DNA from: Isohypsibius dastychi | Taxonomy: Eukaryota; Tardigrada; Eutardigrada; Parachela; Isohypsibiidae | Assembly (NCBI GenBank): GCA_034696485.1 | Contig: JAQIWT010000354.1 | Coordinates: forward strand, 1 to 22,642 | Reading direction: 5' to 3' | DNA length: 22,642 nucleotides | Shown here: piece after piece, positions 1-22,227 of the stretch | How positions within the stretch are numbered: the first letter of the stretch is position 1 | How the letters are laid out: each line of letters opens with the position of its first letter | Translations under genes and position numbers: made by a program | The notes under the pieces: model-generated | The model's input: the letters and a program-made list of their open reading frames with translations, nothing else | What the model was told of the DNA's origin: nothing | Databases searched by the model: none

Positions 1-2
1 CT

Positions 3-359
3 TTTGATCACTCGATTGGTCCCAAACGTGTCATACCTTCAGGCATCACTCAGCAGCTCGTGACTACAACCGCGAAGTATCAAATTGAACGGGTGAATCG
101 TACTATTGACATACCTGAAGATACCACCGAAACGATAATTGTTAATATACAATTCGGAGCGTCACTGGGAATCAAAAGAAATAAAAACCTGTTTTTTTTG
201 AATAATTCGCCTGGTGGGACTGTACATAAGCTAATGTCTTTAATCAAGTGGTGGAATTTGTCACTGCGTATGCAATTTGAAGTTTTACTGCCCAAAACTA
301 GAATGTGTGTGGTATATACCGTGTTTGATAACATTATAAGTAAGTTTATCCGGTCATAG
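3..359 (+). CDS. Partial open frame of unknown function, cut by the window start
   Basis: The frame is open from base 3 through the in-frame ATG at 60 to a stop at 357-359, about 118 codons in total. It therefore probably enters from outside the window as a 3' exon or gene end. The composition looks like real coding: a stretch rich in T, I and V (residues about 25-60) resembles beta-strand-rich protein, followed by KWWNLSLRMQFEV. I do not recognise a domain. Its place next to the frames at 425-730, and the adenain-like remnant on the other side of the 12-mer block, make an old Maverick structural gene conceivable. That is only a guess from context. Confidence 0.35.
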   Translation, partial: FDHSIGPKRVIPSGITQQLVTTTAKYQIERVNRTIDIPEDTTETIIVNIQFGASLGIKRNKNLFFLNNSPGGTVHKLMSLIKWWNLSLRMQFEVLLPKTRMCVVYTVFDNIISKFIRS

Positions 360-433
360 ATTTAAATTCCCCACGATAATCAGTCTGTTTCGGAGATCAA
401 CCAACACCGCCAACTGATTGCCGACTTTACAGC

Positions 434-728
434 ATGAACACTTCACAGATTAGTTACATTATGCGTAAGATTCCAGTAACGGCTAACCCTAGTAAAAGTT
501 ACTACTCGCTAGTAACGCTACTTCGTGTCGGCTACTGGGCCGACTCCACGTCTTCTCGAAGTTTACCGAATGCAGCAATTGCGATGTTTCTCGCTACCAG
601 TTACTCCAAGTCTGCTGATTTCAGAAATCAGCAACTTTGGAGCTGAATTTGTTGAGATGAAAAGTTCTCGTCAGAAATTTGTATCTCTTTGTCATTCTTA
701 CCTCGTTGTTCAAATTAACAAGTTCTGA
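434..728 (+). pseudogene. Frameshifted coding-like remnant, possibly start of a capsid-type gene
   Basis: Two overlapping plus-strand frames (434-646 and 525-728) each look coding over part of their length, as if one frame passes into the other by an indel near 560-600. The second frame ends with a run containing TPSLLISEISNFG and SYLVVQINKF, the sort of serine/hydrophobic pattern seen near the start of double-jelly-roll capsid proteins of Polinton-like elements. The resemblance is weak and from memory of the pattern only. It stops at 726-728, just before the first 12-mer at 769. Confidence 0.2.
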
Positions 729-960
729 GTGTAAATCATTGTTCGGGAAGCATTTGTGGAACGTTTGCGCTGACGACAGCTGGAGAATCGCGAAAAGGTG
801 TGCACAGGTGCACAGATGATTTCGTTCCTTTTTCCGAGTTTCTGAATTATTCCATGTTGATTTTGACTACGTAAAGCGGCATTGAACGTTCTTCTTTAAA
901 AAAACCATCCACGCTTTTTGTTTTAGGTTTATGTCATTATCATTGCAACTTGTTGTCATA

Positions 961-968
961 CTTTGCAG
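961..968 (+). promoter_or_regulatory. Candidate trans-splice acceptor of the RING/zinc-finger gene
   Basis: A strong nematode-type acceptor (ctttgcag) ends 10 nt before the ATG at 979, with no obvious donor nearby. This is the usual placement of a spliced-leader acceptor. A 5'UTR intron is the alternative. Confidence 0.4.
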
Positions 969-978
969 AAATTGAAAG

Positions 979-2799
979 ATGGAGCGTCAGCAAAGACTTC
1001 GACAGGAAGTTTCGGAAAATCTGCAAGTACGTTTGAGCTACGAACCATTTCATTTCTTGATTGGAGTGAGCTGACGACAGCGTGTTCTTGTTGTGCTTTC
1101 TAGGCAGTGAAAGACCAGAATTCCTGCTTGATTTGTATGCAAATGGAGGAAGTGGCAGAACTGGGAAGAACACGTTGCTGTAATGCGATTCTCCATGTCC
1201 CCTGTGCTCTTGAATGGCAGTCAACTAAGCAGACTTGCCCTGCCTGCAGGTAATTTGTTGTTGGATCTGTTCTATCGGTGACGACAGCTTTATTTCTTGT
1301 TTCATTTATCTTGTACGCTGACGACAGCTTGTTGTTTGCCAAACTCCTTTTGACGCTTTAAAACTGAAAGATGGACCTCTTTCCATGGAGATGGCACTCC
1401 TTGTTCGGGATATGGAGAATGCCCTGGAGGCTGTGGTGTTGGATGTGGTTCCTGGTAATGGCGCACGTGATTCGTTGGAGATTGTATGTCTGTGGGTTTT
1501 GACCATTTTCACCAAATTTCCCCTGGAGAATATTCTCGTTCCTCTTTCGGCTGCCGAACTGGCTCTCCTTGGTTTACTGGACGCATTGGTCGGGAAGAAA
1601 AACTTTGATCTAGACAGGTATGGCTATCGTTAATAACTCTTTTTTGTGATCATTATTGGATTTGATAGGCTCATTCTTTTGATTCCTCCTCTCTATTTGT
1701 TCAACTTATTATTTGTTGTTGTCGTAGAAAACTCGCTGTCTTCAGCGTTGGCAGAAGATTTTATGAGTATTGGAATCACAAACGTTGGTCCTTGGACCAA
1801 CTGAAGGGCGCCTTCGATTTCTTCCTCCGTATGGGAGCTGTACCGGAATTTTTGGCAGAAGCTGCACAACCTTCTGGTTTGCGGCGTCCACGACATCTGT
1901 TACCGTGGCTGCCGAATTATCGCAGGGCCGAGGAAGAGCAGATGATCGGGGAGTACGCGAACATGTTTACTTCCTTGGCGGTCAAGTATAACGAAGCTGA
2001 GGTAATACATTTGCTGTCGTCAGCGTACGGTTTTGAATTTTGTTGCCCACGTTCTGCTATCGTCAGCTTATATTACAAATTCTCGAATTTTCGTTTCAGG
2101 CCTTCAAGGCACTGGCATTGGCTTTGGGATTTCCCAGTATTGCTTATCTGGGAATTGGACCCTTTCGCGGTAAACGCTATGAAAACTACATGCGCTATCG
2201 GTGTCCGTGTATTCTGTGCCAGTTGATCAACTCCGCTAGAATGGAAATAATGCATTTAAACAATATGTAAGTCCCATTTGAATTTGCATGGTATATACTG
2301 AAACTGATTTAATTCATTCATTATTCAGTTTGTTAATTCAGTTATTGGTTTATTATTTTGCCATTTTTATTTATCTCTGTTGTTTTTATTTTACAGCGAC
2401 AAACCGTTCACCTATGACTGTGGAGTGTGTCAGCAAAAAACAGAGTGGACCGCACTTCGTGGACATCATGCTTTGGAACACGGCGTATGTTTAAATTACA
2501 ATGGAAGTTTGCTGTCGTCAGCTGACTTTAATTTTCAATAGGATATTGATGCAATTGAGTGCGCCAAGTGCGTAACCCCTGTACTGCCGAACAAGGACCT
2601 GGATCATTCAAAGAGCTGCCCGCGCCGGAAGTGTGCCTTAGCGTCACTGGGACAGCAGGGGCGTGAAGTCGTTCCGCCGTTTGCAGTTTCATTCGCGCCG
2701 ATTAGGCTCTGCGTTCCAGTGGACATCTCCAATTATAAGATCGGCATGAAAGAAGAAGCATGTGACAGATTCATCTTGACTTTGAAGTACCGGAAGTAG
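979..2799 (+). CDS. RING-like and multi-zinc-finger protein, seven exons, one phase mismatch
   Basis: Exons read as 979-1026, 1104-1249, 1328-1617, 1728-2001, 2100-2266, 2397-2484 and 2542-2799 (TAG stop). Exon 2 carries a RING-like module: C24, C27, C41/C42, H47, C50, C61 and C64. Exons 5-7 carry further zinc-ligand clusters: RCPCILC, then YDCGVC followed by H-x-H-H and a later H, then CAKC followed by H and two C. RING domains usually act in ubiquitin transfer and the C-terminal fingers could bind DNA; both roles are inferred. Exon 2 ends with two bases of a codon, while exon 3 stays open only if read from a new codon, so the chain is out of phase there, by an indel or a wrong splice call. 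Exon 3 to exon 7 is consistent. 12-mers sit in introns 1, 2, 4 and 6. Confidence 0.7.
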
Positions 2800-3320
2800 T
2801 TCTCCTTTGTTCGCTGACGACAGCCTTCACTTCTGTTCTCATTCCTTGTTTTATTGCTCCGATAAAACCAAATTTTCCGTTTTATTTGTTTTGGCCAGAC
2901 GAATTTCATTGCTGACGACAGCGCTGATAGTACCTTTCTAGTAGTATCTTTCTTGGAAAACCGCACAGATTTGTTTATTTTTGTTTTTAATGATTGGACA
3001 GCGAAGAGAAATCGAAACGAACGTTACCGATGTGGATTTTATAGAAAGGAACAAAAAAGCAGTAGGAAGAAATTGGAAGATCCTCGTATCCATCGAATGC
3101 CTTGTCCAATTGGACCAAAGCTGGTGGAATGTGTTCTGCGTGCAACCTGCTTTGAACGCAAATTCCGGATTGGTCAATTCATCAAACCTCAGTTGGGCGG
3201 AGGTCTGATTATCCCATTCCCCGCGTTATCCCCCCCCCCCCCCGACCCCCAGAGCAGTTTGGCTCACCACTGCCGGAAGTGATAAAATCCGAATCGAAGC
3301 AAAAATAAAGAAGCTGTTTT
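2800..3320. other. Convergent 3' spacer with two 12-mers and a C tract
   Basis: This lies between the 3' ends of the RING gene (+) and the transposase (-). It holds exact 12-mers at 2813 and 2911 and a run of 14 C at 3230-3243. TTTATT at 2881-2886 could serve as a minus-strand AATAAA signal. A plus-strand open frame at 2953-3282 has low-information content and no splice context; I do not support it as a gene. Confidence 0.5.
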
Positions 3321-3503
3321 TTATGAGCCATATTGAAGTGTTGGGAGTAAAACCGCGAAAAGAATTTCATGACTTCCGGGAGGCTTAACAGTCACCACTG
3401 GACGAAAAAGTTCGTTCAAAGACACCTGTTTGATTATTTTTGAACAATTGCTACATTTCCGAATAAAAGTTGGGCTGGTTCCATCAGACGAAGTTCTCTT
3501 CAT
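3321..3503 (-). pseudogene. Possible out-of-frame C-terminal end of the transposase
   Basis: The main transposase frame stops with TGA at 3502-3500. Directly overlapping it (ATGA) another minus-strand frame opens at 3503 and runs to 3321. It contains KCSNCSKIIKQVSLNELF and a later PGSHE, a pattern like the short C-terminal tail of CMC transposases (a Cys-containing segment followed by a P-x-x-x-E end). This would fit a frameshift near 3500 that cut off the tail. The similarity is short and the call is tentative. Confidence 0.3.
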
Positions 3504-6031
3504 GGTCGGGAATTAATTTCTTCAACAATTGCACTCCAACTGTTCGGTTCGCAAGCATTGAATAACACAGATTTAAGGTTCAAAATTTCCAACGACCTTG
3601 TTTGGAAGTACCAGTTACATCTCGTCTTCCTCCTCGAGTACGATTCAGTTTCCAACAGCACGTTATAGTCACGTTGTAGTCTGGATATAAATCGCAAATT
3701 ACCATCTTCGAATGGTTGACGGAGCACGCTGTCGTCAGCAGTCCACTTTCTTGTGTCGTCCTCCATGTTTTCAAAGCGAAGAGGTTTTCCAAGTTGTTCA
3801 TACGAATGGCGAACCCCATCGGTCTCAATGTTGATCATACTCTCTGTAGGAATGGCTATTGTTTGGCAGTTCAGGAAACAGTCGTGTTGATAGCTGCGAA
3901 CAATTTGGCTGGCGACATCGGTTGTGCCATAAACTGTTCTCAGAAGACGTCCCATGAAATCCTCGAAATGAAAACAGGACAAGTGATACAATGGACCCCA
4001 ATTTTCACAGTCGTCCGGATGATGGCGCTGCTGGTGTGTATTATATACCATGAAGTCTTCCCCATAAATTTCTTGAAAGCTATTCAGGAATCGATCGAAG
4101 CACATTCTCGCCATGACCACGTGGTCTCCCAAGGTTCCATACTGATAGCAGTTATCCAAAAGCACAAGATGCATCGCCATCATCAAATCCGTGAAATTGA
4201 AGTAGACTGCGTTGTCTATTACGGCGTCGTAGATATACCATGAGGTGATCAACAAATCGTGTAAGTACTCGGCAGCGTGAACCTAGCATAATTTAATAAT
4301 GCCGACTCATTCACAACGCTGACGACAGCAAAAGTACCTTCAAACCACTCCCCTTCGGAGGAACTGTTCTGGAAAACGATGAAAGAAACCGGAAGTGAGT
4401 CAATCGGCGATCAACGGCGCTAATCAGCTTTTCATTAAGCATTTTCTTGTTTTTTGCAACTCCGCTCAGATGGGCATAGAACGGAAAATCTCCTTTACGA
4501 TTTCGCGTCCACAAGGAGAACATCGTTTTTATCTACCGGAAGCAGCATTATTTAAAGTTCACAGAATCAGATTCAGTTTCTTACCTGACCACATCCCGTT
4601 ACATGCATGTAGTCGCTGCTGGCGCCCCGGTGTGGACAGAATGACTTTATCCTGAGTAGACGAGAAGGTCCAAGAAACCCAAAAACCGGCTTGACTGACC
4701 GCTCGCTAATGGCTCGTTCAGCGTAACGAATTGTGTCTGATTTTTTCCATGATGGAAACCGACCCCGAATGAACCGGTAAATGATTTTACGATCCCCTTG
4801 CTTCCCCCGCTGCAAACATTTGTGACATCCATACATGCCTGCCAGGCCAACTCGATAAAGCGCTTTAAATCTTGCCTGTGCGTCAATATTCGCAATTGGT
4901 GCCGCGACTATGGTTGTCACAGTTGAGCTGTCGTCAGCGGTCCACTGAAATCCTTCGCTTTCAAGCCTCGCAATTTCCTCGGAGAAAAGATTCAACACGA
5001 TTTGCATATCCGGGTGAGTCTTGCCAACGCTCAAAGCATACAAAAACCGATGTCGATATCGTTTTCGTGACGGACTTTCATTTATAATTCAGGTTAAATG
5101 CCAAACTTCGCCATTAATACTTCCATTCATCCCAAATGCTTGTCCTCCGTCGATGTGCCAAGTAATCGAGATATCAAGCTGACCAACATTCGAATCAGCG
5201 TACATTTTCCCGTCGAACACGTCCAGCAAATCCGGTGAACGAGTCTCGCGATATAAAAAAACATACCTTCCGTTTGGTGATTGGAAATATCGTCTGAGTG
5301 CTTCCTCGATGCTGAAGATGTGGAATACTCCGCCAAGCTTTTCATTCACCTTTTCGCTAAATGGAAACATCATACACACTTGCTGACGACAGCTGATAAA
5401 TTTATCGACCCGATTGGTCTCAGACGGCGAATCTTCTCTTCCTATATACAACTGATACTTGGTGCAAAAGTGATGTTTTTCCGGTTGCATGACAAAATCT
5501 TTCAGGTGTTGGTCCATTAGATACAGTGACGTTGGAAATTTCGTATCGTTAGTGTTGAAACGTTGAATAAACTTCAACATGCTCTCTTGTTGCACCCCGG
5601 CCATGCAGTGTTTTCGCGACGCTCGCATGAATTCCACGACATTTTCAGTTGTCGATCTTCCTGAACTGGCTGTATTCTCCCGCTGGAATTCAACGTGAAT
5701 GTCATCGAATAGAAAATCCACGGCTTCCGGTTCGTCAGATTCTCAAGTGTCTTCAAACTCTGGTTCTGGAATGCTCAGAGGAAAATTTTCTTCAGCGCTG
5801 TCGTCAGCCTAAAATGTCAAACTATAATAAGAATCAATCAAGTACACCCAGCAGAAAATCAGATTTTATCAGAATTATTTTACTTACAAATTTAACAGTT
5901 TTCGATTCCGTGCGTTTGCGTTTGCGCATAAGATACAGCAACCCATCAGAAGATTCTCCGTCATCGAGCAGATAATCCTTGATTTTTTTCCGAATTGACG
6001 GAACTTCAACAATTCTTTTTCTGCGAGGCAT
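3500..6031 (-). pseudogene. CACTA/EnSpm-like (CMC) DDE transposase with two in-frame TGA codons
   Basis: Minus-strand exons: 6031-5888, 5808-4585, 4532-4338 and 4282-3500. All joins are phase 0 with clean GT/AG sites, giving about 780 codons. Blocks typical of animal CACTA-like transposases appear in order: a basic N-terminus; an acidic linker; WHIDGG (residue about 268, first Asp); INESP and THPDM; NIDAQAR (second Asp, about 357) followed by YGCHKC; FLGPSRLL; DYMH (about 450); IKTMFSLW; HAAEYLHDLL; MVYNTHQ; NWGPLYHLSCFHFED with the likely catalytic Glu; and GTTDVASQIV. Such proteins cut and paste their element in the nucleus. TGA codons at 5745-5743 and 5091-5089 interrupt the frame in the acidic linker and just after the first Asp. 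Otherwise the catalytic blocks look intact. 12-mers lie in exon 2 (5797, 5382, 4927), intron 3 (4318) and exon 4 (3728). A splice acceptor (tttttag, TAG at 6049-6047) precedes the ATG by 15 nt. Confidence 0.8.
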
Positions 6032-6049
6032 TAATTTTTGTGAAAGCTA

Positions 6050-6379
6050 AAAACTCAAATCAGAACCAAAACACGTTTCTTGTTTTTCAACAGAAGAGGG
6101 CGCCACTTAACAGATAAATACGTCAGGCTACTAGAAAACCGGTATCTGACGTCAGCAATTTTGTCCTGAAATAGAGCTCAGATGGCGTCACAGGCAATAT
6201 TCATGATGCAACACCAGCTTGAGCAGCCGTTATAGGTTTTCGCATTCATTCATGTTTGTTATATTGGCTCTTGAATTTCGGTGAGGTTCTCTCCCATCAA
6301 AGAACATTTCAAAGTTCTCAGCTATCGTCAGCGATTTTCCCAGTTGAATCCAGTTCCGCTTAGTTTATCGTGAACCGTT
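6050..6379. promoter_or_regulatory. Divergent promoter region between transposase and BEN-like gene
   Basis: About 330 bp separate the divergent starts of the transposase (-) and the BEN-like gene (+). It holds a one-mismatch 12-mer at 6321 (GCTATCGTCAGC) and an acceptor-like ttttcccag ending at 6343, 36 nt before the plus-strand ATG, which could be a trans-splice site. No clear TATA box or other promoter element is recognisable. Shared regulation of the two genes is inferred from position only. Confidence 0.4.
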
Positions 6380-7086
6380 ATGATGACTGATGAAGAAGAG
6401 AAGCTCCAGGAGTTCAAGCGGTATCACGGCTCAAGAAAAGGTAATAGAAAATGCCAAGTATTTTGAAATTTAAAATTTGAAATTTCTAAGCTGGTGTTTT
6501 CAGGGTATCTTGTCGTCGTTTATCACACGACCTGCCATGGGGCTCAAATTATCTATACCAAATCCAAATTGGACTTGTGGAAGCTGGATGGAGAGCTTGA
6601 TTACAGCGGAAAGGAATTCTTGGCTGTTGGCGACATCGTTCTTGCCAGACTCAAAAAAGACTCGAAAGATTTTTATCATGCGAGAAAAGAGTTAATCACA
6701 TCAGATAAGAGCTCTGCGAAAACCACACTCGACCATCTGGAATCCGTCAAGGTGAGAGTGAGCTGTCGTCGGCGAACCAGTGTAAAATGATTCAACTCAA
6801 CGTTTTTCAGGCTGCATCTGAAGTGCAGACAAAAAAGTCGAAGGAAGACACGCGTCAACTTGGGGAAGAGCAGTTGCAGGTGGAGAAGTCGTTTATTCAA
6901 AGCGTTAAAGATTCAGGATTGCAGACTGGGAATGATTCTGCTACGGAAAGAAGGAGAAGTAATTATCCGTAATTTCTTGAACCAGAAATTCAGTCAATTA
7001 AAACTTTCTAGGTTGTGTTACTCCGCGACGGGAATCAACTCCTACTCCAGAAACTGGTTTGACGAGCCCGAAAACTCCAATTCTTG

Positions 7087-7139
7087 GCAAGTTTGCTGAC
7101 GACAGCTGTTGAGCAGACATTAACGTTGATTGTTTTTAG
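7087..7139 (+). other. GC-AG intron carrying an exact 12-mer
   Basis: The only donor that keeps the reading frame here is G|GCAAGT at 7087, the classical GC-AG donor context; the acceptor is tttttag at 7133-7139. The alternative GT at 7091 puts a stop 17 codons into the next exon. The 12-mer sits at 7095-7106, right behind the donor. Confidence 0.55.
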
Positions 7140-9140
7140 ATTGTATCATGAATTCTCGTCCGAACCTTTTGACTGCTGCCGAAGGTGGTAAGAAGTACAA
7201 CTGTGGTAAAATCAACGCTTTCTGTCTTCCAGAACATAAAAAACGGTTTGTGAAGAAGACAATGACGCTCGAGTCAGATGAGGATGACAGCCAACACCAG
7301 GGGAAGGCTGAAGAAGGTAAGGAACGTGCAGTTGGTAGCATCATCAGAATATTTATTTAATTTTCGGTCTTTATAGCTGACGACAGCAGCATATATGAGG
7401 GAAGTGTGGATATTGTGGATGACAAGAAGCGGGCTGACCATCAGCGAAGCTCCAGCGAGGGTAATTAACTCTTTCAAGTGAATGTGTATATCTGATCTAA
7501 GCTGACATGGCTTTCAGAAACTGTTAATCGGCCGCCGCGGAAGACTGACGACGACGATGACCGTCGATACTGTAAGATACAGCAACTTGCGGTGTATTTG
7601 TCTCTTTAACGATAATAATGATTTACAGATGGATTAAAAGATATATATTAGCAAGAGAGCAGCCCTTCAAAAATGGAAGCTCATGAAAAACTTGTGCGCC
7701 AAGGTGAAAAACTTCGATATTTAGTTTTTGTCGTCAGCTGTCGTCAGAACTATCCATTTCAGTTTGAGAAAGTCAACAACGTGCCAGAGCTGCTCGACAA
7801 AAGCCAGGTAAATGTGCCCGATATTTCCAGAGAATACTGTATGATTAAGCTCATTTTTATAGCTTCAACGGCTTATGGTCGACTTTTGCAAAACGCCCGC
7901 AAAGGTAAATGCGCTTTTTCAAATATTCACATTGTGCAGTTTACTCCTCAGAAAGCGAGAAAAAAGTGGCGGTCCTTAATCGGAAAGAGATTGAAGAACG
8001 AACTAAACGAGGTGAAATATTTGGTCAGGCTGTCGTCAGAGAAATGATAAAAATTTATTGCAGAACCAAAACCGGAATTACTCTTGACGGAAGAAGACGA
8101 ACGTATTTATGACTACCGTTCGTTTTTATACAAAGCTTTCGTCCATTTTTCTGACTATTTTTTCATGATTCAGAAGATTATCCGGATCCTCTCCTTCCTG
8201 CAGTGAAACAGGAGCGTCTTGATGACAACCGTCATTTAGGTCAATCGTATCCAATCTATTCTTCTTCTGGTAAGCATTGTTGCCTTAAATCTTGTTTATT
8301 TCCGATGGAATTTTCTTGTTCATATTCCTCGTGCGTTACGTCATAATCTTCCCATTTTTCTGTTTCAGGGCAAAGAAGCGGCACAGATGAAAAACAGGCT
8401 GTCGTCAGCAAGGATGTATCACTGACTCATTTCAAACAAGAACCAGGTACTCACCACCATGTTTCTTTCCGGTCTGTAACAGTTAGTTTCGTTTGTTTTG
8501 GAGAATCAAACAGTGACTCAGAACGAAAACGAGCATATACCAAAAAATCCTCAATTTCTGAATCGCATGGGATGAGTTATTCGGCCTCAAGTGAGTTGCT
8601 CTACTTTGTTGTTTTTGTTTTTTGCATCTGAAAGTTGACAAAAAATCCCGCAGCACATCGCGAATTTGATCCCAGAAAAGGAAATTCAAACAACTAACAT
8701 GGACTTGAAATATTCTGTTTATTTTCAGAAAAACGAGCGGAAGCCAAATCTGTCGTCAGCGCACTAGGAGTCAAGAAAGAACAACGTAATGGAAATTTGA
8801 TTATTTACCATAGAAGCATTTAATATGATAAATTATATTTATTCAGTTGGTTGATTTGAAATCTATAGTATGTGTGTCTTTAAAGGATATCATGAGGATA
8901 GTCCCGCCCGTTATCAAGCATACCCCCCAAGTACAGCAAACTTGATTTTTATGGACTGTGTTTTAGGAGTAACCTGGAATTTTTTTGCAGTTCGAAAGAA
9001 TCATGGATCGCTCACGGACCTTTTCAAGCAACGGCCTGTTCCGGGTTGCGGTGGGAATAATTCTCCGGGTAGATTCTAATTAAAATGCTGAATAATTCTC
9101 GCTGACGACAGCTTCTCTGATTCAAGGCTCACCGACTTTG

Positions 9141-9386
9141 TATCGTGCGACCAAAAAGGTTCTGCGGTTCCACATTTTGAGGGGCGGTCGGATGACGTAA
9201 ATTGGAGAATAGAATGGACCATTGAGCATTTTGGTTTCAGAATAACAAAGGAAAGGCAAGAATGCGTATTGGCCAAAAGAATACTCAATTTTCATTGGTA
9301 CGTAAACCCACCAACCAAATGGCACGTGACGTCATCCAACTGCCCCGCGAAATGTGGAACCGCAGAACCTTTTGGGTCGCACGATA
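9141..9386. mobile_element. 242-bp Tc1/mariner-type MITE with TA target duplication
   Basis: The element spans 9143-9384 and is flanked by TA at 9141-9142 and 9385-9386. Its ends are inverted repeats starting TCGTGCGACC and running about 58 bp (9143-9200 against 9384-9327) with about six mismatches. It has no coding capacity. The TA duplication and long terminal inverted repeats fit a non-autonomous Tc1/mariner element. Leaving out the element and one TA keeps the host exon open in frame up to the donor at 9431, so insertion came after the gene was formed and disrupts it. Confidence 0.85.
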
Positions 9387-10566
9387 CTCTAAGGCCGAAA
9401 CGAAATCCTGGCCACGTGACGCGAGAAAAGGTAGGAAAACTTCATGTTTTTTGTGAGACAGTATGGTAGTAAAACTCTTCACAGGTGCCGCCGAACAAGT
9501 GAAATCAAGAGGTCCGCCGCACTTGGCAGTTTCGCCGGAAGTTGCGACATCCAGACGTGTGAAAGGTAAACCATATTATGAAAATTTATCCGACTGCATG
9601 AGGAGAAACCTTTTCTAGCTGGTCCGTCTCACGAACGCTCTCCTCCGTTCCGCTATGATGCTGTCGGGAAAACGTCTTCCCAAAAAATCGGGAGACGTAG
9701 TCCAACTTGTAAGGTTTTTTTTCATCACTGAAAAATTCTCGCTTTATTTTTTAAAATCTTACAGCGTCTGCTTCTGGATCAAAGACAATTGTTCGCGAAG
9801 AGAATAATCCTGTTGGTAAGCATCGTTGAAGCTGTCGTCAGCGCAGTCTGAACTGCAGGTTTTACAGGTGAACGACTGGAGATGATTCGTCAGCTCAACC
9901 GCGATATCACGTCTGCTGGTGTTGGGAAAATCAAACTCTTCCCTGCTTCTCGGATTTCCGTGTCAGAGGTCAAATTGAATAACTTCAAGCGCAACTGGCA
10001 TCTTTTGAAGCCGATGATCGATACAATGGATTTGATTATGGTGTTGATCGGGTCGGAGGAGAAGAGCAGAATGCTGTTCACCGGAGATAACATGGGATTG
10101 CAGAAGGTACTGGGAAGAGATAACGTCCGAGAAGTTATTGGTAAGTGACGCTGACGACAGTGCTGAATTGACAAAAATCTCCATTTACATATTGTAGAAT
10201 TTATCAACTGTTATCATCCTGGAATCACCGGCCGGAATGTGGCCGCCGTAATGGAGCCTGATGTCTATCAAGCGTTCAGCAAGAAGATCAGCCACTTGCG
10301 AAGGAGCAGCTGTGTTATTGACGAAATCGACTTGGAGCAGGAAGAAGACTGCATGTCAATGGGCAAGCCGGATTTTGACGAGGAATAACGTTTTTGTGAG
10401 TGACCTTTCCGTAATCAATGTTTACGTTGCATTTTTCCAGCTGTTGTCAGTTCCATTGTTTTTCTAGTTTATTACTATTTTAGTGCGATGATTGCTCCAT
10501 TTTTGTCTGGTTTTATGCCTGGTTCTGCTCCTTGTTATATCTCTTCAAGCTCCAGAAAAATGTCCA

Positions 10567-10572
10567 AATAAA
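10567..10572 (+). terminator. Candidate polyadenylation signal AATAAA of the BEN-like gene
   Basis: An AATAAA lies about 180 nt past the TAA stop at 10386-10388 and 31 nt before the start of the adenain-like frame. It is the first full signal downstream of the gene. Confidence 0.4.
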
Positions 10573-10602
10573 CTCGAAAAGGTACATTAATGTTCGTATG
10601 TA

Positions 10603-10990
10603 ATGGCGAGCTGGCAAACTTCGAAACGACTGACTAAATTCCTACCCAAATTAGCTCGACATTTTGACCGGGGTAAAGCGTTTGCTGGAGTGTTTGCAGC
10701 TGATAACATCAAACAACCTTCAACCCTACCGGCAGGTCTTTTTGTGAGCACAGACCGCCATTTTTAACCGGGGAAACAATAAATGGGGATATTTTGACCT
10801 TGTCATGAAACAATGTGTTTTTGAAAGACCTATTAGTTTTTGATGCCACAATTCAGAATTTCTGTCGAGATAGAAGAGTGTGTTTACAAGATGTTGTCTG
10901 AAGTACATTAAGTACCGCCCGTGAGCATTTTGAGCATGTCTATTCATATGAAAACATGCAATAAACTCGTGTTTTTAACTTTTTCTCGGT
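10603..10990 (+). pseudogene. Decayed adenain-like cysteine protease of Maverick/Polinton type
   Basis: An ATG at 10603 opens a 54-codon frame with FAGVFAADNI and LPAGLFVSTD, matching the start of Polinton adenain-like proteases (a GVF-x-x-D block, then a PA-x-x-V-x-TD block). The frame stops at 10765-10767. Further family blocks can be followed downstream across stops and frame changes: an LLVFD block near 10838, an LQ block near 10884 and an STLST block near 10900, where the catalytic Gln and Cys-Gly would lie. The expected His-Trp and Cys positions are damaged, so it is inactive. In intact elements this protease matures the capsid. An adenain or Ulp1-like protease belonging to another element is the alternative. 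Confidence 0.5.
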
Positions 10991-11018
10991 CAGCTGAAGG
11001 TGATTTGGTCTCATTCGG

Positions 11019-11812
11019 CTAGGGAATTAGATCTCTGCAAGCTTTTCCGAAGGACTTGAGTCGGCTTCTGGAACTACCCCTTTCTGCATTCATTGTATCC
11101 ATGCTTGTGCCTTTGTTGCGCTCTGGGTCCAGAATCACCGGAATTCCGAAGTCCAGTGCAGATTCTGAAAATGTAGAGTGATATGAGGAATTTAAACTTT
11201 TCTGGGTCGAGAGGCTCGTTGGTGCGAAACTAGTGGAGAGTTGGAGTTCTTTTTTCCAATCATGAGAACATCTTTGTGCAACGAATGACTTTGTCGTTAG
11301 TGAGTTCCCGCAAGCAGCGATGAAGAGCTCCGTACTTGTATGCAGCGGTGATCTTTTACGCTCGATCCAGTTTCTCGTCCTACTGTTTTTTCTTCAAGAG
11401 TCCAGTCCTGCTGACGATATAAATTGGAACAGATGTCCAGTAATGAGAAGGTATCAGAAAATACAACTGATGTGTTCAGTGATTGCGCTAAACATTAAAT
11501 GAGATGCTGAGTTTCAGATCCACTTGGTTAAACCCAGAATGAAGTGATATCCCCGATCGTCACGATTTTGGCAATGCGGGCCTGAATGACTTTGTCATAG
11601 GTTTTCTCCTCGGGGATGTTTCGAATTTTGTCATCAAGATCCAGATGGTCGACCAAGTACAACCTGAACGAAGAGCAACAAATTTTGGAGAAATAATCTT
11701 CAAAAAGAAAAAAGCAAATTTTTAAGCTTTGCAAAAGCTCCTGAACTTCGTCATCGGTACTTGATAAACTGCAAGAACAGTTGGGTGAGCCTGAAAGAAT
11801 CAGAAAAATCAA
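11019..11812 (-). pseudogene. Broken multi-exon gene with a Tudor-like block
   Basis: Coding-like minus-strand pieces share consistent splice context. One follows an acceptor near 11790 (SPNCSCSLSSTDDEVQELLQ). One runs from 11663 to a TAA at 11530-11528 and ends ARIAKIVTIGDITSFWV; the codons after the stop continue PSGSE. An open stretch lies at about 11430-11200, with one internal TAA. The terminal piece, 11164-11019, ends KACRDLIP and a TAG. The FWV motif after an isoleucine/valine strand is what starts many Tudor domains, which bind methylated arginine or lysine. With only that block visible the family call is weak. At least two nonsense codons show decay. Confidence 0.35.
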
Positions 11813-12107
11813 TTACAAAATCTGAGCTGAACTAATGTTTCTTCAAATTCGCAACTTTTGTTGACCTGTGTAGGTGATGGATCGGCGCGATGAAAAGCGT
11901 GCCGGCTATCCGGAGAATTGGTGAATTGAAGTGACCACCGTAAAATGAGGGTTGTTTTCGAGACTTTATTTGTATGATAATGTGAGATGACAGACGTTTC
12001 TTCGCCAGGTCGGATGGAACACTACAGCTACAACGACGATGAGGCTGCATTATCGAAACAGCTGGCAATCCACCCCCGAAAAATTTTGGCACACAAAGTG
12101 GAACTGA

Positions 12108-12251
12108 TTGGAGATTCGAATCGCAGTCGCAGTGGCAGCCGAAGATGTCTCGGAAAATGTGGAAGATTTTACTATTCAAGACGAAAAATTTGCTGGTTCT
12201 TTGAAAAGTGAACTAGATGAACAAAATTCTGAAATATTCAATTTTAATTAA
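12108..12251 (+). CDS. Isolated acidic exon-like frame, unknown
   Basis: A 47-codon plus-strand frame is open between a TGA at 12105 and a TAA at 12249-12251. It reads as an acidic tail (VAAEDVSENVEDFTIQDEKF, then ELDEQNSEIF). It could be the last exon of a plus-strand gene whose other exons are lost. I see no clear acceptor or partner exon. Confidence 0.22.
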   Translation: MEIRIAVAVAAEDVSENVEDFTIQDEKFAGSLKSELDEQNSEIFNFN

Positions 12252-12660
12252 ACCTGCTATTCAGCTCATCCTCTGGGATTTCAGTTGTGAACGAATTGCG
12301 GAAAATAAACATCAAAACCGAAGGTCAATCCGCGTTCTCCCGCTATTTTCGTAAATGTGCATACGATATCGCTTGCAGAAAATGCGAATTTCGTGTGGGA
12401 ATCACTTCCATCATTCACTAGAACTTCTTTGATGGTAACCACCAGACTTTTAAATTGCGTGTCGGTTACAGTAGACTGCGTGTCGGATTCACCCCAGCGC
12501 TCATTAAGGGCAATATAACTGTTCATGTTTCTCGTTTGTCAAAAACACGACGATTTATTGGTCTGCGATCTGCTGATAGCCTGCCTTTGCCTTCTTGTGG
12601 TCTTCCTGTCACAGAGAAAAGGTTGCAATCAAATATCGCTAGATCGCAACATCCGTGTCT

Positions 12661-13687
12661 CTATTTTTTAAAGTGCTGTCTTCCTCCAACTTTAATTGCC
12701 GGTGCATTAACACCTATGTTCATGATGACTTTGTTGGAGAAACTAAATCCATCGGGACATTCAATCAGCTGGTCATCATGAGCGAAATATCCAGCAGTAG
12801 AATAATAGGAATAGGTGCGAGGTTGACGATCATCACATTCGGTCTTATCAACAAAGTTTGACCATGTTCCAGGAGGCGAAAGTCTAAGAGTGTTGTCGGA
12901 AACAATGGAAACAATACTTTGCCAGTTCCGCCGAAATAGTATCAGGAAGTTTGCAGAGATCGTAAAAAGTTAGCCGTGAGTACTGTCCATTAATTAAACG
13001 CGTAAACTTCAAGTTGGAATTCAGCAATAGTGAGCTTGGAAATGCTGTTCCTTCTGCGCGAGATTTAATGGCGAGTGACACGTCCTCAAATAAAATTCTG
13101 TTCTTCTCTCGGTCTTCGATGAACACACGGCATCGTGACAACGTAATCGATGAATATACAATCCAGTACTCGCAGGATTCTTTCAAAGCATAATAATGGA
13201 TTCCGACTTCAGAGAACAAGATATTTGGTCGAATTTCGGTCAACATTATTTGGTGCCAGAGGACATCCATCACATGCTTGCAGCAGTCCTCACATTTCTT
13301 CCTGCAATTCGGTTGTTCGCTTTTCTAGATCCGCAAAATTTTATATTTCTTGAAGCAAGTCAGATGTGAAAGGCGAGCCAAATTACCAGTGCATTTATTA
13401 AGCCGATCCATTCTCATTTCAGTTCAATAATAAAAGTCCTCAATCGGCGATGCGCAACGAACAGACATCATATCTACCATGACTTCCAGCACACACTTCT
13501 CCTTAATCAAAACATTGTTCCATGAGTTACAAGTTCTACGAATACAAAAACGTTTCAAAACAAAAAAATAATTGCTGTAAAACTTTAAACGATTCTGCTG
13601 CACTGAATCCGGTCGATATACGTCTAAAAATGATAGTATATGTATCAGCACCTCGACAGGGATCATCTGCATCGAAGTTGGCACCAT
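12661..13687 (-). pseudogene. F-box-type gene remnant with frameshifts
   Basis: An ATG at 13687 starts a typical F-box N-terminus (MIPVEVLIHILSFLD), followed by an AT-rich intron-like stretch and then RTCNSWNNVLIKE, the usual second half of an F-box, which docks to Skp1 in SCF ubiquitin ligases. The splice that would join them is out of phase. A long frame from about 13310 to 12884 (KKCEDCCKHVMDVLWHQIM at its start) follows after damaged sequence. It shifts by one base near 12930 into a frame containing NWQSIVSIVSDNTLRL and PPGTWSNFVDKTECDD, open to a TAG at 12663-12661. Whether F-box and C-terminal parts were one gene is inferred from strand, order and spacing. Expanded F-box families are typical of Caenorhabditis. 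Confidence 0.45.
12838..12899 (-). repeat. Direct repeat, copy 1 (inside the F-box-type remnant)
   Basis: About 61 bp match 14852-14912 with six differences. It encodes the TLRL...PGTWSNFVDKTE block on the minus strand. Confidence 0.85.
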
Positions 13688-14333
13688 ACCAAAGGAAGAA
13701 AACGAGTTGCCCGTTTAGAAAACCTCTTTAAAAAATCTACGCAGGTCATGAAGAGAACTTCTAGTGATTTAACTTGTTGCACCCTAACCCCCATCCCCTT
13801 CGGTCTCACGACACAGCTCCGTACGCTCAACAGTTTGGTTATATATCCGCAATTATAGAATTGAATTCATGAAAATGTCGCAAATCTATTATCACTATGC
13901 GGTTTCTCGAGGAATGAACCGCATGGTATTTTCTATTGAGTTTCATGTCATAGAACCAATGGTATAAAAATGGCACTAAAATTCTGCGTTTTCTGACGCT
14001 GTAAGGAGAGACTTCGAACATGTCATTTAAAAAATGACGGTGAACATCTTCGCACTTGCATTGTTTTGGCTCAGATAAGACATTGTTTTCGGTATTAGTT
14101 GACAAGACCTCTGATGATTCCCAACAAACAAACCGGTAAGAAATATTTTAGAAGACTCGAAAAGAAGCAAGTACGATGTTGAATCATTTTAATTGGATCA
14201 AATGCCGACAAAAGACCAAGTTTGTGGAAAATGAGGTGGAAAAAACGGACACGACAAAAGTAGATTATGAACCGGGAAGTAGCAGCGAATACTGCAAAAA
14301 CCTTCGGCACCAAAACGGTACTGAGAACTTGAC

Positions 14334-14588
14334 ATGAAAATATATGGGAAAGATGCTATGAGACCGCGAAATAAAAGCAACATGTTCAGAAATGAGGACG
14401 AACGGAAATCGGAGCATCCTTCTGGCCCATATCGCACTGGGGACAGCTCCGACCCAGAATTTTCGGATTCTTCTGACGAGCAGCAGCGTTGGTACCATAC
14501 CATCGAAGTGCGCATTCAGAGCAATATGCGTGAGCGCAGGGCAAGAAGATCGGAAAGGGTGAAACTTTTGAATCTTTCTGTGGAATAA
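14334..14588 (+). CDS. Small hydrophilic open frame, unknown
   Basis: An 84-codon frame with a Ser/Asp-rich acidic centre (GDSSDPEFSDSSDEQQ) followed by an Arg-rich tail (NMRERRARRSERVK). A second coding-like stretch of similar composition lies just upstream in plus orientation (about 14195-14330, FVENEVEKTDTTKVDY), possibly an earlier exon. No domain is recognised. The alternating acidic/basic make-up suggests a nuclear or nucleic-acid-associated protein, but this is no more than composition. Confidence 0.3.
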   Translation: MKIYGKDAMRPRNKSNMFRNEDERKSEHPSGPYRTGDSSDPEFSDSSDEQQRWYHTIEVRIQSNMRERRARRSERVKLLNLSVE

Positions 14589-14851
14589 ATAATGAATTCG
14601 ATCAGAATGACATCAGACTGCAAAATGATATCATGAATAAATACATGAATTTCGCAGATGTGGCACGAATGATATGATGATTTGTCATCAAAAAAATCCT
14701 CTGAGAGTTTCAAGATCTCCTGTTTTTGAGCCAAATTGCTTTCTTTGAGGACCTAAATAGCTTGGCGGAGATCAATATTTTCATCGCGAATCCAACAAAA
14801 AGAAACGTAACGACTGACCGGAGGTTAATGTTCAAAAGGTCACTCACATCT

Positions 14852-14912
14852 TTCGGTCTTATCAACAAAGTTTGACCATGTTCCAGGCATCAAAAGTCTA
14901 AGAGTATCGTCG
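14852..14912 (-). repeat. Direct repeat, copy 2 (fragment of a second paralogue)
   Basis: About 61 bp, roughly 90% identical to 12838-12899. On the minus strand it again reads DTLRL...PGTWSNFVDKTE and then diverges abruptly. A second copy of the F-box-type gene or its C-terminal exon once stood here; little else of it is readable. Confidence 0.8.
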
Positions 14913-15698
14913 TAGTTATTTGGTGAGTGTATGAATTTTCCTGAATGCCGACAGAAAAATTAGAAGTACACTCTGCAAATTCCATTCCAGCGAAGACATA
15001 TGAATTGTTTCCGCGATTTCTCGTTAACGGAGATAGATTGAATGTATATTCGACCAATCTAGTGCAACAAGTCGTTAGGGATAGAAAACAGATGCAATTT
15101 CAAAAGTTTCCAAACTGGTGACCTCTCGAGTGTAGATGTATGTAATCATTGGAACATGCAAATAAGTTAGATTCTGGACTAAGCAAGTTCATGAAGTTAA
15201 TGATGTTTTGTTTTCATCACTTTTGAAATAGCCGTTAGGGTGACACATCAAAAAGAGACAGCAATAAATATCTCTCAAAAGAAGGATAGATATTCCTGCT
15301 AACCGATGATCAGAAACACAACTTTTGCGCATAAAATACCACAAGCCAGCTCTGGACTCTCTTATGAACATGGCGTGTGAATGACCCCTTCAAACGGGCA
15401 AACGTTATCAACGATTTGAGATTCAACAATCTTCATGTCAGCACTGCAAAAAGAGCGGACCAGACGTATAGCTGTCGCACCGGCCTGATGACACGTCGAA
15501 AATACAGGAGTTGCAGAAATGACAGTGGGAAGTTGGGCGACTTTTATAATGTCTTCTACTTTGACAATTAGCTCGTCTTGTCTTTCTTAAAAGGCGTTAA
15601 ACAAAAAAAAACATTTAGCTATGTTAAGGTCGACGGGTACTTCATCGTCACTATCCAATCTTATTTTTATTAACAATGTTCATTAATTTCTTCTATAG
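14913..15698. other. No supportable gene
   Basis: Short open frames occur on both strands (for example 15189-15371 minus and 15377-15571 plus), but none shows splice context, domain pattern or coding-like composition. An A-rich run lies at 15602-15610. Confidence 0.4.
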
Positions 15699-15844
15699 AG
15701 TTAGCAAAATTTGTGCGCAAATTCAACAGCCCCAAACTCACAGGGGTTCAGGAGGAAGATTCCGATTATGGAAACGTGAATGAATCAGGGACTTTTGCCG
15801 AAGAGATGCGACGGTATTATCTGTCACTCGCCATGGTCGATTGA
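15699..15844 (+). CDS. Terminal-exon-like frame, unknown
   Basis: A good acceptor (ttcttctatag, ending at 15698) is followed by 2 + 48 codons, stop included, ending in TGA at 15842-15844. With a phase-1 join it reads LAKFVRKFNSPKL, then a Glu/Asp-rich middle and EEMRRYYLSLAMVD. Phase and acceptor are those expected of a real last exon. Upstream exons are not recognised, so the product is unknown and the gene may be a fragment. Confidence 0.35.
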
Positions 15845-16654
15845 TTCATCAGCTGGTTTGGAAACGGCTTTTGTGGACATGCCATGCCCTAGCAGCATCC
15901 ACACGATCCCAGATATAGACACCATATTCAGCTCAATCTCTACGATCATTCTGATCTATGGATCACAATTTATTACTTCGTGTCACTGATGCGTACAAGC
16001 AACATTGAACAAAAGTGATGATATTGATGTGAACACTAGCGGTGGTTTGTATAACAATACATCTTTTGATCGGTTTCTTTTTTTATGACCCATCCAGTTT
16101 GACGTAAATATTGTTCATTCTGTTCATGTAAACAGAGTGGTTCGCTCAATGACAAATTGCGGATACGATCTTTTTAGCGGTGGGAGCGCACATAGTTATT
16201 CATTTTGGAAATGCTCAAGGGTTTTATCTGCTTCATCGATAAAGTTTGAACTTCGGTTCTGTGGTCGTCTTAAAAATCAAATCGACTCGTTTGCTATTTA
16301 AATTACGTTCAAAGCGTCGTAAAATTCCTAGCGTGACAGTGGCTCACATGGTTGTGGCTGTTTTAACAGATTTTATTGGTAAACAAATTTGACAATTGAT
16401 GATAACCGTGTAAAGAATGAAGTTATTTCACGAAATGAAGCAGAAAAAAACACTAGATAAGAGAACACATGATGATTCCTTCGGTGTCTGATAGATCGAT
16501 ACGAAATCATTCTCGAGAACAATTGCTAGAAGTAAAGGTCACCTCTGCAACGAGAACAAGATTCGGAGGGTATTCAACTCGGTAGTAAGGCGGCAGTGGG
16601 AATGTGCTCGATTATGTGGTGGATGATGAACTATCCGAGGGTTTCCGGTAGAAA
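15845..16654. other. No supportable gene
   Basis: An AT-rich stretch with only short frames. No repeat of the 12-mer, RNA gene or domain pattern is visible. Confidence 0.4.
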
Positions 16655-17107
16655 TTACATAAACATTTGCTGGGCGGCGCAGTGTATGTCTGGGAGACAA
16701 ATCGGGCACCGACTACCGTGCGGTGGATGAGCTTCGCTGGTAGCGTTGATACAGTCCACGCACAAAATATGACCGCAACGACGAAGGCGCCAGGATTCCT
16801 GAATATCAGAGGTTACCCGCCGAAGAACAAATGGTTTACTTTGTCTCACGCTCAGTTGGAATGCTTTCTTATCGTGTCGATACAAATATGGCATTCGAGG
16901 TGGGGTTTGCCGTTGAATGCCTACGCTTGTGCCTATTGGAAATTCACAGTAGTTGAACAGCGGTGGTGTACCACGGCTTCTGCGCGGGAACTTGCTCACA
17001 ACATTGTGGGCTGCCGAGATGGCATCAAATTCTTGAGTCGGCGTAGTGTGGTTACCACTTAAGGCGTGACTCATGGTTATCCTCGGCAAGATGTTGATAA
17101 TCCGCAT
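16655..17107 (-). pseudogene. RING-finger remnant lacking the first cysteine pair
   Basis: The 150-codon minus frame ends with an excellent second half of a C3HC4 RING: LRRCGHILCVDCINATSE, then RCPICLPDIHC. Where the first C-x-x-C should stand (about 20 residues earlier) the frame reads RRVTSD, so one zinc site is missing. A RING without it would not fold or recruit an E2 normally, hence the pseudogene call. The N-terminal 70 residues show no pattern. Another minus frame at 17179-17397 could be an upstream part of the same gene. The RING at 1104-1249 is of a different type, so the two are not close copies. Confidence 0.45.
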
Positions 17108-17756
17108 GGATTCGGTAATTTCCCGCTTGCAATCCCTTTAACGTATCACGTTCTGCCAACGGCTGAGCATCTTGGGTGTTAGATAAATTCCGAAAGATCG
17201 CGATGGTGAATGATCGCGACCAGTTGCAAAACGAACGTTGACCTCTCGGAGTTCCTGCGCATGTGTGGCATAGGAATCATCAAATATGGAAGCGTCCCTG
17301 TCCTGGAGTTGAGGATGGATGAGCTGACTGGGTTCCGCTGTCTCACAATGTGTTCGAACAACCGAATCTTGCTTGCTGGGACTTTGTAAAACGACACTAC
17401 TTCCTGATTAAAAGCTAGTTTCCTGATGCAGTTGGAACAACGTGGTTAGTTCTTTTTCGCCTGTTAATTGCATACAAGTTGGTAAAGTTCTTGGAAGGCA
17501 TGTCGCAAATAAGGCACCGTCTTACATGACGAAGAATAAGAACATGTTTCTTCAAGAATTCATGATGATTTTGGATCTTTTGGCGAGTTGCTCCGTGAAG
17601 CTTGACAAGGAGTGGAACTGTTTTGCATGAGCCAGCAAGTATGCACGGTGTACCTCACCCAATGATCATTTGATTTGCGACGCGGATGAGTTAATCTAAC
17701 CTTCGGGAAGAATGATGACTTAAAAAAACTGTCAAAAACCCGGTTGGACTTTTCAT
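17108..17756. other. Mostly unassigned; weak minus-strand open frame
   Basis: A minus frame at 17179-17397 (VPASKIRLFEHIVRQRNP, then LPYLMIPMPHMRR) has coding-like composition but no domain and no clear splice sites. A plus frame at 17442-17630 lies in the same area and is less convincing. Nothing else is seen. Confidence 0.3.
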
Positions 17757-18165
17757 TTCCGGCCGCCGTGAACTCAACCCGCTCATTTTTGTAAGAAAAA
17801 TTCGATCCCGGGCTCTGGTCAATGGAAGAGAGTGTTTTGTGCGAAACAGGCTGGAATTTCGGCTACGGGTCTCTGCTCCGGTAGAGACTGACTTGGTAAG
17901 GGTACACGCGGAATCGATAGAAGATTCCTACGGCTTGCAAACTACGCGGACGACTGTTTTTCCATGTATGGCTATCGAAGATGGATACGAGTGACGTTGG
18001 AAAACGCTCCACCGAATCGAGGGTCATCTGATGAAATAACCCCGCGCATTTGATCGTTCGCCTTCCGGAATGAGATCCACCCTCCCGACATTTTCGCATT
18101 TTGACAGTGTGACCGGAATAAGTTCAAGTAGACCACAAGATTCAGAGTCACGCGCCTCAATCAAT
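17757..18165 (-). pseudogene. Decayed 3' part of a large unknown minus-strand gene
   Basis: Two overlapping minus frames look coding over different halves. One reads EARDSESCGLLELIPVTLSK and continues NVGRVDLIPEGERSN from about 18160 to 18040. The other reads TLDSVERFPTSLVSIFDSHT from about 18029 to 17865. The switch marks a frameshift near 18030, and stops follow in both. Strand and order suggest it belongs with the frames at 18320-20922. The family is not recognised. Confidence 0.35.
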
Positions 18166-18319
18166 TCCTCGCTCAGGCCATACTATAGAAAAACCGTAAA
18201 TATCATAATCGTCACAATTGTTCGGCAGTAGAAACAGACTCTGTTAGCTACTGAACTTCTTCAGGGTGTTATCCTATTTCGAAGGAACATGCGAATAGCC
18301 TTTATAACTTCTTCTCGGT

Positions 18320-18880
18320 TTAGGTTTTTTCTGATGGACAAAATTTTTTCTGGCTTTCGTCTGGGAACATCTGCGTTCTCAACTTCAGCAAGAGTGTCTT
18401 CTCGAGATGGTACGAACGAGGTAAACACTGCGGTCCGGATATTCTTGTTCGGGATATCAGCTCTTCTTTGTTCTTCACCAATTCAACGCTCTCCTCAAAG
18501 TTTCCGGATACCTCGTAAAGTTTCGTCACGCGCTGGGGGCTGACAAAGATGACTTCTTCGTCCCCAATTTCGTAATTAGATTCCGCTTGCCGGCTACTGT
18601 GTTCCGGTTGGCGGAATAGCTCCAATTCAGTGACAATATCAAACTGAATCGGCTTCATTTGGAAGCTGGTCGATTTTATGTAAGATTCCACATCTAGTGA
18701 CATATGATGCCATCGACCACTAGCGGAATATCCTCTGAGGTTCCAGGTTGCATCAACACGTTGTCGGAATAAGCCGATGGCGTCTACACTCTGCGGCCTT
18801 TGTTGAGACAGTCTCACTTTATTAAGCATAGACTTAAGCGTATTCACGAACGTCTCCTCAATCTGGTCACAATAATGCAT
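18320..18880 (-). pseudogene. Long open piece of the unknown minus-strand gene
   Basis: A 186-codon frame, the longest uninterrupted frame in the right half, rich in charged residues (for example FDIVTELELFRQPEHSSRQ and NFEESVELVKNKEEL). No transmembrane segment or zinc ligands are seen. It starts 33 nt after the stop of the frame at 18914-19264 and probably continued it in the ancestral gene, through an intron or an indel. Function is unknown. Confidence 0.4.
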
Positions 18881-18913
18881 AGGGAACCCAGCCTGCAGAA
18901 GAAGCCAGTCGAT

Positions 18914-19720: not shown

Positions 19721-19775
19721 TCGTGTGCATTTGCAGAAATGATCAGAGCGAGTGAACTGAAATTTGGATACTTAC

Positions 19776-20922: not shown

Positions 20923-21004
20923 ATCCCCACCGTATCGGCAGGCAATTACTGCTCGATTGATAGCAGTTATTGCCTGCCGATATAGTGGGTATGAAAGACA
21001 AAAA
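20911..21004. repeat. Head-to-head inverted repeat, arms about 43-45 bp, short loop
   Basis: The left arm 20911-20953 and right arm 20960-21004 are reverse complements at roughly 80-85%, with a near-perfect core around ATCGGCAGGCAAT. The loop is only about 6 nt. The left arm is the readable 5' edge of the decayed minus-strand gene; the right arm repeats it in plus orientation and diverges after about 45 bp. Confidence 0.8.
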
Positions 21005-21936: not shown

Positions 21937-22227
21937 TTGTAAATTGTGTTTTTCAAGTGGAGTTTATCGTGTTTCTGTTATTAACGAACTAATTTTTGTA
22001 ACATTCAATTGGAAAAACAAGGAATCAGGCTAGCACGGATGAAGTAATTGTGGCGGCAGGCGAAACTCCGAACAACCGTTATGTTTCCGACGTTTGAGGG
22101 TGTACTTTAAGTCCGGAAAACTAGGTGGATCTTGTTAAACTCCCGGGAGACTTGACCCAACTTGGCAGGGACATCATGGTATAACTTTACTTGTCAAAAA
22201 TCAACAAATCTTACAAAACCTGTCCGA

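Follow-up and report, generated by a model that had tools for sequence, protein, structure and literature searches.

What does a 12-bp word do when it is written again and again through one block of genes? This is the question raised by contig JAQIWT010000354.1 (hereafter the window, that is the whole 22,642-bp stretch analysed, which is the entire contig C354 of an incomplete assembly of 30.37 Mb in 1,648 contigs), where the near-palindrome GCTGACGACAGC has 17 exact and nine one-mismatch copies, all within 769-10161, with 0.07 copies of at most one mismatch expected from 100 dinucleotide shuffles, none of which held more than one. We show here that a single complete transposon of the EnSpm/CACTA-like (CMCT) group makes up the word-rich block, and that the 12-mer tracks this transposon family and not a chromosome or a longer repeat. 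Ten of the exact copies lie on the plus and seven on the minus strand (12 and 14 for all 26 copies), bearing out the initial annotation, which had reported 17 exact copies of both orientations in one block and none in the following 12 kb; from 10674 to 22642 no copy was found even at two mismatches. The range that it gave, 769 to 10451, holds at its start, whereas its end is that of a two-mismatch copy at 10440, the last copy with at most one mismatch ending at 10161; the other two-mismatch copies, at 3908, 6145 and 7727, likewise lie upstream of 10452. For comparison, the commonest dispersed 12-mer (at most one mismatch) reached three to six copies in each of 14 control stretches of 8-10 kb, namely window 10674-20673 and 13 loci, most of which were picked for carrying the word or a one-mismatch copy of it and one of which includes the second element described below.

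The borders of the transposon come from an empty site. When its flanks are joined (487-10673 and one TAA being removed), they align to contig C432 at 78% over 612 columns and without a gap at the junction, which places the element at 487-10673, with a target-site duplication of TAA and imperfect termini; the window from 10674 onward matches C432, and window 1-486 matches, as three pieces, the C432 DNA immediately upstream. The right end is also found in a second element, on contig C64.

487..10673, no strand assigned: complete DNA transposon, 10,187 bp, delimited by the empty-site alignment and the right-end DNA common with the C64 element
484..486, no strand assigned: target-site duplication TAA, left copy
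10674..10676, no strand assigned: target-site duplication TAA, right copy
487..500, plus: left terminal inverted repeat CCCTAGTAAAAGTT, 9 of 14 bases matching the right one
10660..10673, minus: right terminal inverted repeat CCCCGGTCAAAATG
10563..10673, minus: right subterminal region, also present in the C64 element at 93% identity (113 columns, including two target-site bases)

The C64 element (1,516 bp, L010:3294-4809) is bounded at each end by the terminal inverted repeat CCCTGGTCAAAATG, is flanked by CTA on both sides, and is too short for a transposase such as that of the window element. Its three exact words are spaced at 430 and 422 bp, the outer two lying 311 and 352 bp from its ends (by start positions). 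The DNA common to the two elements is the right 113-124 bp of the window element; outside this shared end blastn (E<=1) gave matches of 16-25 bp only, and tblastx none below E 0.27. The left end of the window element (487-980) has no further copy in the assembly. The terminus pattern at up to one mismatch has 28 occurrences and its reversal 13, the exact matches being only three, both C64 ends and window 10673.

A genome-wide scan for the word, at exact and one-mismatch levels, places its exact clusters on transposon elements, a coincidence for which the initial annotation had proposed such a count. There are 25 exact copies, against three for the reversed word used as control: 17 in the window, three on C64 in a span of 0.9 kb, and one each on C49, C389, C568, C980 and C1646, so that 20 of the 25 sit inside two elements bounded by terminal inverted repeats. 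At up to one mismatch the count is 171, of which 29 fall in the two elements, against 98 for the control, palindromic variants being scored on both strands. The earlier suggestion of an En/Spm-like transposon filled with sites is upheld by the identification of its two ends and target-site duplication, of an empty site, and of another element that bears the word.

Some observations concern the surroundings of the two elements. The C64 element is nested in a repeat resembling a miniature inverted-repeat transposable element with gaacccc-rich inverted ends (L010 3110-5083, C64:34450-36423), and a search with that stretch gave 147 genome matches, most of them to the gaacccc-rich ends. The insertion-site DNA (window 1-486 and 10674-10993) is related to a C432 gene matching Peptidase_C5, a protease of adenovirus type (E 4.9e-5, 23.5 bits, cut-off 21.3), which we take to be possibly part of a Polinton-like element.

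Within the window element, three genes could be modelled; the models are rough and spliced, with changes made by hand. They are given here together with the word copies.

979..2799, plus: gene 1, RING finger followed by a cysteine/histidine-rich region, rough spliced model (zf-RING_2, 27.3 bits, at the Pfam cut-off)
3500..6031, minus: gene 2, transposase of CMCT type, carrying the motifs D, D, C(2)C, H(3)H and E and interrupted in frame by two TGA codons
6380..10388, plus: gene 3, modelled roughly with about 20 small exons; protein of unknown kind and candidate for binding the word
769..780, plus: exact word, before gene 1
1070..1081, plus: exact word, gene 1 intron
1277..1288, plus: word with one mismatch, gene 1 intron
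1317..1328, plus: exact word, gene 1 intron
1735..1746, minus: word with one mismatch, gene 1 exon
2013..2024, minus: exact word, gene 1 intron
2056..2067, minus: word with one mismatch, gene 1 intron
2511..2522, minus: exact word, gene 1 intron
2813..2824, plus: exact word, spacer
2911..2922, plus: exact word, spacer
3728..3739, minus: exact word, transposase exon, reads ADDS
4318..4329, plus: exact word, transposase intron
4927..4938, minus: exact word, transposase exon, reads ADDS, no indel against homologue P0001
5382..5393, plus: exact word, transposase exon, overlaps conserved SC, no indel within the word against P0001
5797..5808, minus: exact word, start of transposase exon 2, boundary set by hand
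6321..6332, minus: word with one mismatch, spacer
6762..6773, minus: word with one mismatch, gene 3 intron
7095..7106, plus: exact word, gene 3 intron
7376..7387, plus: exact word, spans the 3' splice site of a gene 3 exon
7737..7748, minus: word with one mismatch, gene 3 intron
8029..8040, minus: word with one mismatch, gene 3 intron
8398..8409, minus: exact word, gene 3 exon
8749..8760, minus: word with one mismatch, gene 3 exon, uncertain and set by hand
9101..9112, plus: exact word, gene 3 intron
9831..9842, minus: exact word, gene 3 intron
10150..10161, plus: word with one mismatch, gene 3 intron
10440..10451, minus: probable decayed word with two mismatches, 233 bp from the right end

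The spacing of these words is even, not periodic. With the element ends included, the gaps between the 26 words have a coefficient of variation of 0.474 against a random mean of 0.947, a value as low being reached in one of 100,000 trials (P about 1e-5); for the 17 exact copies only, the effect is weaker (0.532 against 0.918, P 0.006). The first word lies 282 bp inside the left end and the steps are roughly even, mostly 0.2-0.6 kb, with 83% of the element within 200 bp of a word, 95% within 300 bp and 99% within 410 bp (none of 3,000 random sets for the first of these coverages, P 0.001 and 0.006 for the other two). A strict period between 140 and 520 bp was sought and rejected, the best, 153 bp, giving R 0.48, below the random 95th percentile of 0.52, and no 10.5-bp phase was seen in the word positions (R 0.11). 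Relative to the genes, ten words are sense and 12 antisense, and this lack of a strand preference is expected of a double-stranded, nearly symmetric site; a role at the RNA level or as a branch point (the word contains CTGAC) is unlikely given the absent strand bias.

The copies lie in introns, exons and spacers, as had been claimed, with eight of the 26 touching exons in the rough models. Two of the exon words can be compared with P0001, the one database homologue of the transposase; neither is gapped within the word and one overlaps conserved residues, which suggests, as far as a single homologue goes, that these two arose by substitution in place and not by insertion. A longer repeat as carrier of the word is ruled out by flanks that are nearly random, and to this extent the earlier description of the flanks as unrelated stands, although their mean pairwise identity (15 + 15 bases) is slightly above that of random places (0.272 against 0.255, P 0.013); the best pair, at 0.5, is not unusual (P 0.42). 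AGTGGAC precedes the word in two exon copies (3728 and 4927), GCTGA follows the words at 2911 and 5797, and the copies at 7727 and 7737 overlap. Overlapping or partial second words, at 7727-7748, 2911-2927 and 5792-5808, hint at gain by local duplication.

The shared ends of the two elements differ by 7%, and 20 of their 29 words with at most one mismatch are exact (the four two-mismatch copies being outside this tally). By our own estimate this exact share is about what neutral decay since the time of activity would leave, from which we infer near-uniformity of the words at the time of transposition.

As regards class, gene 2 shows the DDE/D arrangement of CMCT transposases, in which C(2)C and H(3-4)H separate the second D from the last E: D at 5131-5163, D at 4867-4893, CHKC at 4816-4827, HQQRH at 4022-4036 and the E in FEDFMG at 3950-3967, the catalytic acidic residues having been chosen by eye. 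The order D, D, C(2)C, H, E is described, in the accessible part of PMC12730594, as common to EnSpm, Mirage, Chapaev, Transib and their kin. The duplications, TAA in the window element and CTA in the C64 element, fall in the 2-5 bp range of the group. Both elements end in CCC..GGG and not in 5'-CA..TG-3', termini which are said there to hold "in most cases" and hence are no strict requirement for CMCT elements (PMC12730594). No Pfam transposase family was matched, gene 2 giving none at E<=1 and P0001 none at E<=10. The 3-bp duplication also agrees with CACTA/EnSpm in the narrow sense; the termini, however, are not CACTA/CACTG, so the element is filed as CMCT-like only.

P0001 was the one relative of gene 2 found among 8,000 scored database candidates (37% identity over 52%, E 2.5e-65), while 21 weaker matches lie on 17 other contigs of the genome and a piece of the transposase gave no match among plasmids. 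Because of the two in-frame TGA codons (5743-5745 and 5089-5091, minus strand), this copy of the transposase is probably inactive unless they leave with introns. Seven tubulin matches were found in the genome, of which the three best are without an internal stop, two of the four weaker ones hold TGA and two TAG/TAA, which gives no sign of an altered genetic code. In the PDB, a beta-tubulin fragment was matched best by beta-2B chains, a mammalian type, and almost as well by many other entries.

For a word-binding protein encoded by the element, gene 3 is the leading candidate, by exclusion and because its C-terminus resembles, by eye, a BEN domain, gene 1 being the next. The resemblance was not confirmed by Pfam and a BEN domain in gene 3 is not accepted here. 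Gene 1 also has a DM match below threshold, and its only genome relative below E 0.001 is at C445:13610-14706 (41% in the best-scoring exon). The sole BEN match of the genome search lies 1.5 kb from this relative and on the same strand (C445:16227-16334; E 0.0034, 22.5 bits, the cut-off of 23.2 being reached when neighbouring matches are counted), which keeps the BEN idea for gene 3 alive as a lead only; tblastn of gene 3 against the C445 stretch gave nothing convincing (best E 0.41). Two adjoining weak relatives of the gene 3 C-terminus are present at C1302:4736-6183 (31%, E 1e-5, and 26%, E 0.002).

Other features of the window are a 59-bp inverted repeat inside the element (9140-9198 and 9329-9387, 91.5% identical) and a 92-bp imperfect palindrome at 20912-21003; a search of the window with Rfam gave nothing at gathering scores.

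We consider it probable that the copies of the word are dispersed sites at which a protein encoded by the element binds, coating it from end to end, presumably for anti-silencing in the main. The element's borders, target-site duplication and empty site, the presence of 20 of the 25 exact words in two elements, and the even spacing support this. The coating protein is proposed from the near-palindrome occurring on both strands, evenly over 10 kb and in unrelated DNA, and from the parallels with VANC and TnpA, whose dispersed-site systems are likewise marked by an element-specific short word in multiple copies inside the element; a protein-binding site, as the initial annotation read the word, fits the near-palindrome, and that interpretation as a whole is partly supported. 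A protein encoded by the element itself would bind GCTGACGACAGC, and the sites would be maintained through introns, exons and spacers at roughly even steps in order that the bound protein, reaching perhaps a few hundred bases around each site, covers the element. The likeliest purpose would be to open chromatin or to mark the element as self against host silencing, as VANC does for VANDAL, and a second role may lie in bringing the ends together, as TnpA does for En/Spm. The 1.5-kb C64 element would be recognised in trans by the same protein, and may keep its sites for that very reason.

A number of points weigh against such a coating protein. None of the element's proteins shows a recognised domain that would account for the binding of 12 bp: searches of Pfam and of PDB sequences gave no match for gene 3, its C-terminal 171 residues, the part compared with the protein database, have no relative among 39 candidates, a single-sequence AlphaFold model of this C-terminus is useless (mean predicted local distance difference test score 39.6), and gene 1 has no relative among 8,000 scored candidates. 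Words are scarcer in exons than expected (8 of 26, where exons make up 57% of the length by the rough models, P 0.009), and the exon comparison leans on a lone homologue at 37% identity with a 6-residue gap a few residues from the word at 5382..5393. The known TnpA and VANC sites, as given in the accessible parts of the sources cited below, are subterminal or non-coding, whereas some of ours stand in exons. The assembly yielded no more than two members of the family, and a transposase relative on C128 (38% over one exon) lacks a dense word of its own in the 3.4 kb examined, where the best word has two copies, against eight and nine in two equally long stretches of the window and three in a word-free stretch.

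Among other explanations, the words could be bound by a protein of the host, for example an insulator protein or a factor of the bZIP/Maf kind, which the element exploits for expression or insulation as gypsy does with Su(Hw). In the bZIP/Maf element, TGCTGACGTCAGCA, the core differs from the word by a single base, the element's own proteins show no recognised word-binding domain, and the excess of one-mismatch copies over the control, with the two elements included and palindromes counted twice, leaves room for a looser use by the host. Yet the five exact words outside the two elements in 30.4 Mb are near the control count and give no sign that the host uses the exact word, and the perfect palindrome GCTGACGTCAGC is absent among the window copies at up to one mismatch; we regard a host protein as unlikely, if the most serious of the rivals. 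The gypsy insulator resembles our element in having repeated sites of about 12 bp in a transposable element, but differs in that they form one compact array bound by a host protein. Rather less likely still is a role confined to transposition, in which either the transposase or a protein like TnpA would bind the words, fold the 10-kb element and join its ends. The CMCT-type transposase, the 3-bp duplication and the words of the short C64 element would suit such a role, against which most words lie kilobases from the ends, unlike subterminal TnpA-type arrays, and the nearest lie 282 bp inside the left border and, on the right, 233 bp (the two-mismatch copy) or 523 bp from the end.

That the word is neutral, spread by slippage, templated insertion or gene conversion and without function, is very improbable in our opinion. 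The word remnants and shared flanks mentioned above (2911, 5797, 7727/7737 and 3728/4927) and the slight excess of flank identity speak for copying; even spacing, the lack of long shared flanks and the two ungapped exon words speak against it, as do the words in the interior of the C64 element, where no similarity to the window element was detected. A chromosomal signal, either the nematode pairing centre that the initial annotation had also considered or a dosage-compensation site, would account for dense 12-mers within genic DNA and is given practically no credence, since the copies end where the transposon ends and the sole further cluster of exact copies in the assembly also lies within an element bounded by terminal inverted repeats. 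A pairing centre calls for a large motif domain per chromosome, whereas two such clusters and five singles, close to the control, are what 30.4 Mb contain. The SL1 spliced-leader 22-mer was not found at up to two mismatches in the incomplete assembly, weak evidence against an ordinary nematode.

The systems nearest to the proposed coating protein are known from plants. In Arabidopsis, VANC21 binds a 9-base motif within the Mutator-like VANDAL21, and VANC causes loss of methylation throughout the elements (PMC5735166), acting on entire VANDAL elements (PMC5735166; PMC10398659). VANDAL21 and VANDAL6 contain, as here, numerous copies of a short element-specific motif, which differs between related elements (PMC5735166, in its accessible part); they differ in transposase class, in their host, which here is probably an animal, and in having tandem repeats in non-coding DNA, where we see mostly single words, evenly spaced and in part touching exons. 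The plant CACTA elements of the En/Spm type share with the proposed system a DNA-binding accessory protein, in their case TNPA, which binds repeated subterminal motifs of 12 bp in En-1, a 3-bp target-site duplication (Tgmt*), and non-autonomous copies needing sites in cis (PMC2613891). In the available text of that paper, however, the TnpA motifs lie within 159 and 732 bp of the Tgmt* ends, whereas ours extend across the whole 10.2 kb, and the termini here are CCC..GGG and not CACTA. Fungal CMCT transposons of the EnSpm group likewise combine a 3-bp duplication with an extra gene, in their case a TET/JBP dioxygenase of the kind that helps remove methylcytosine; no dioxygenase was recognised here, and the accessible portion of their description mentions no dispersed word (PMC12730594). 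Among the papers listed by searches of one open-access library, only the Arabidopsis VANCs were found to be named as element-encoded, sequence-specific anti-silencing proteins, and no close match was obtained for animal CACTA elements with subterminal repeats, absence being unproven in both cases.

What the locus may represent is, tentatively and with the odds somewhat against it, an animal transposon with its own sequence-specific anti-silencing system, the word being written near-evenly into introns, spacers and exons so as to leave a site within about 400 bases almost everywhere, and a non-autonomous relative with an unrelated interior having independently kept or gained the word. If true, this would be an animal counterpart of the plant systems and a case of convergent evolution of transposon self-marking, in which the word stands even in coding exons. 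The reach of the protein, a few hundred bases to each side of a site, would become directly testable, and the compact pair of word and protein would be usable as a tool for opening chromatin.

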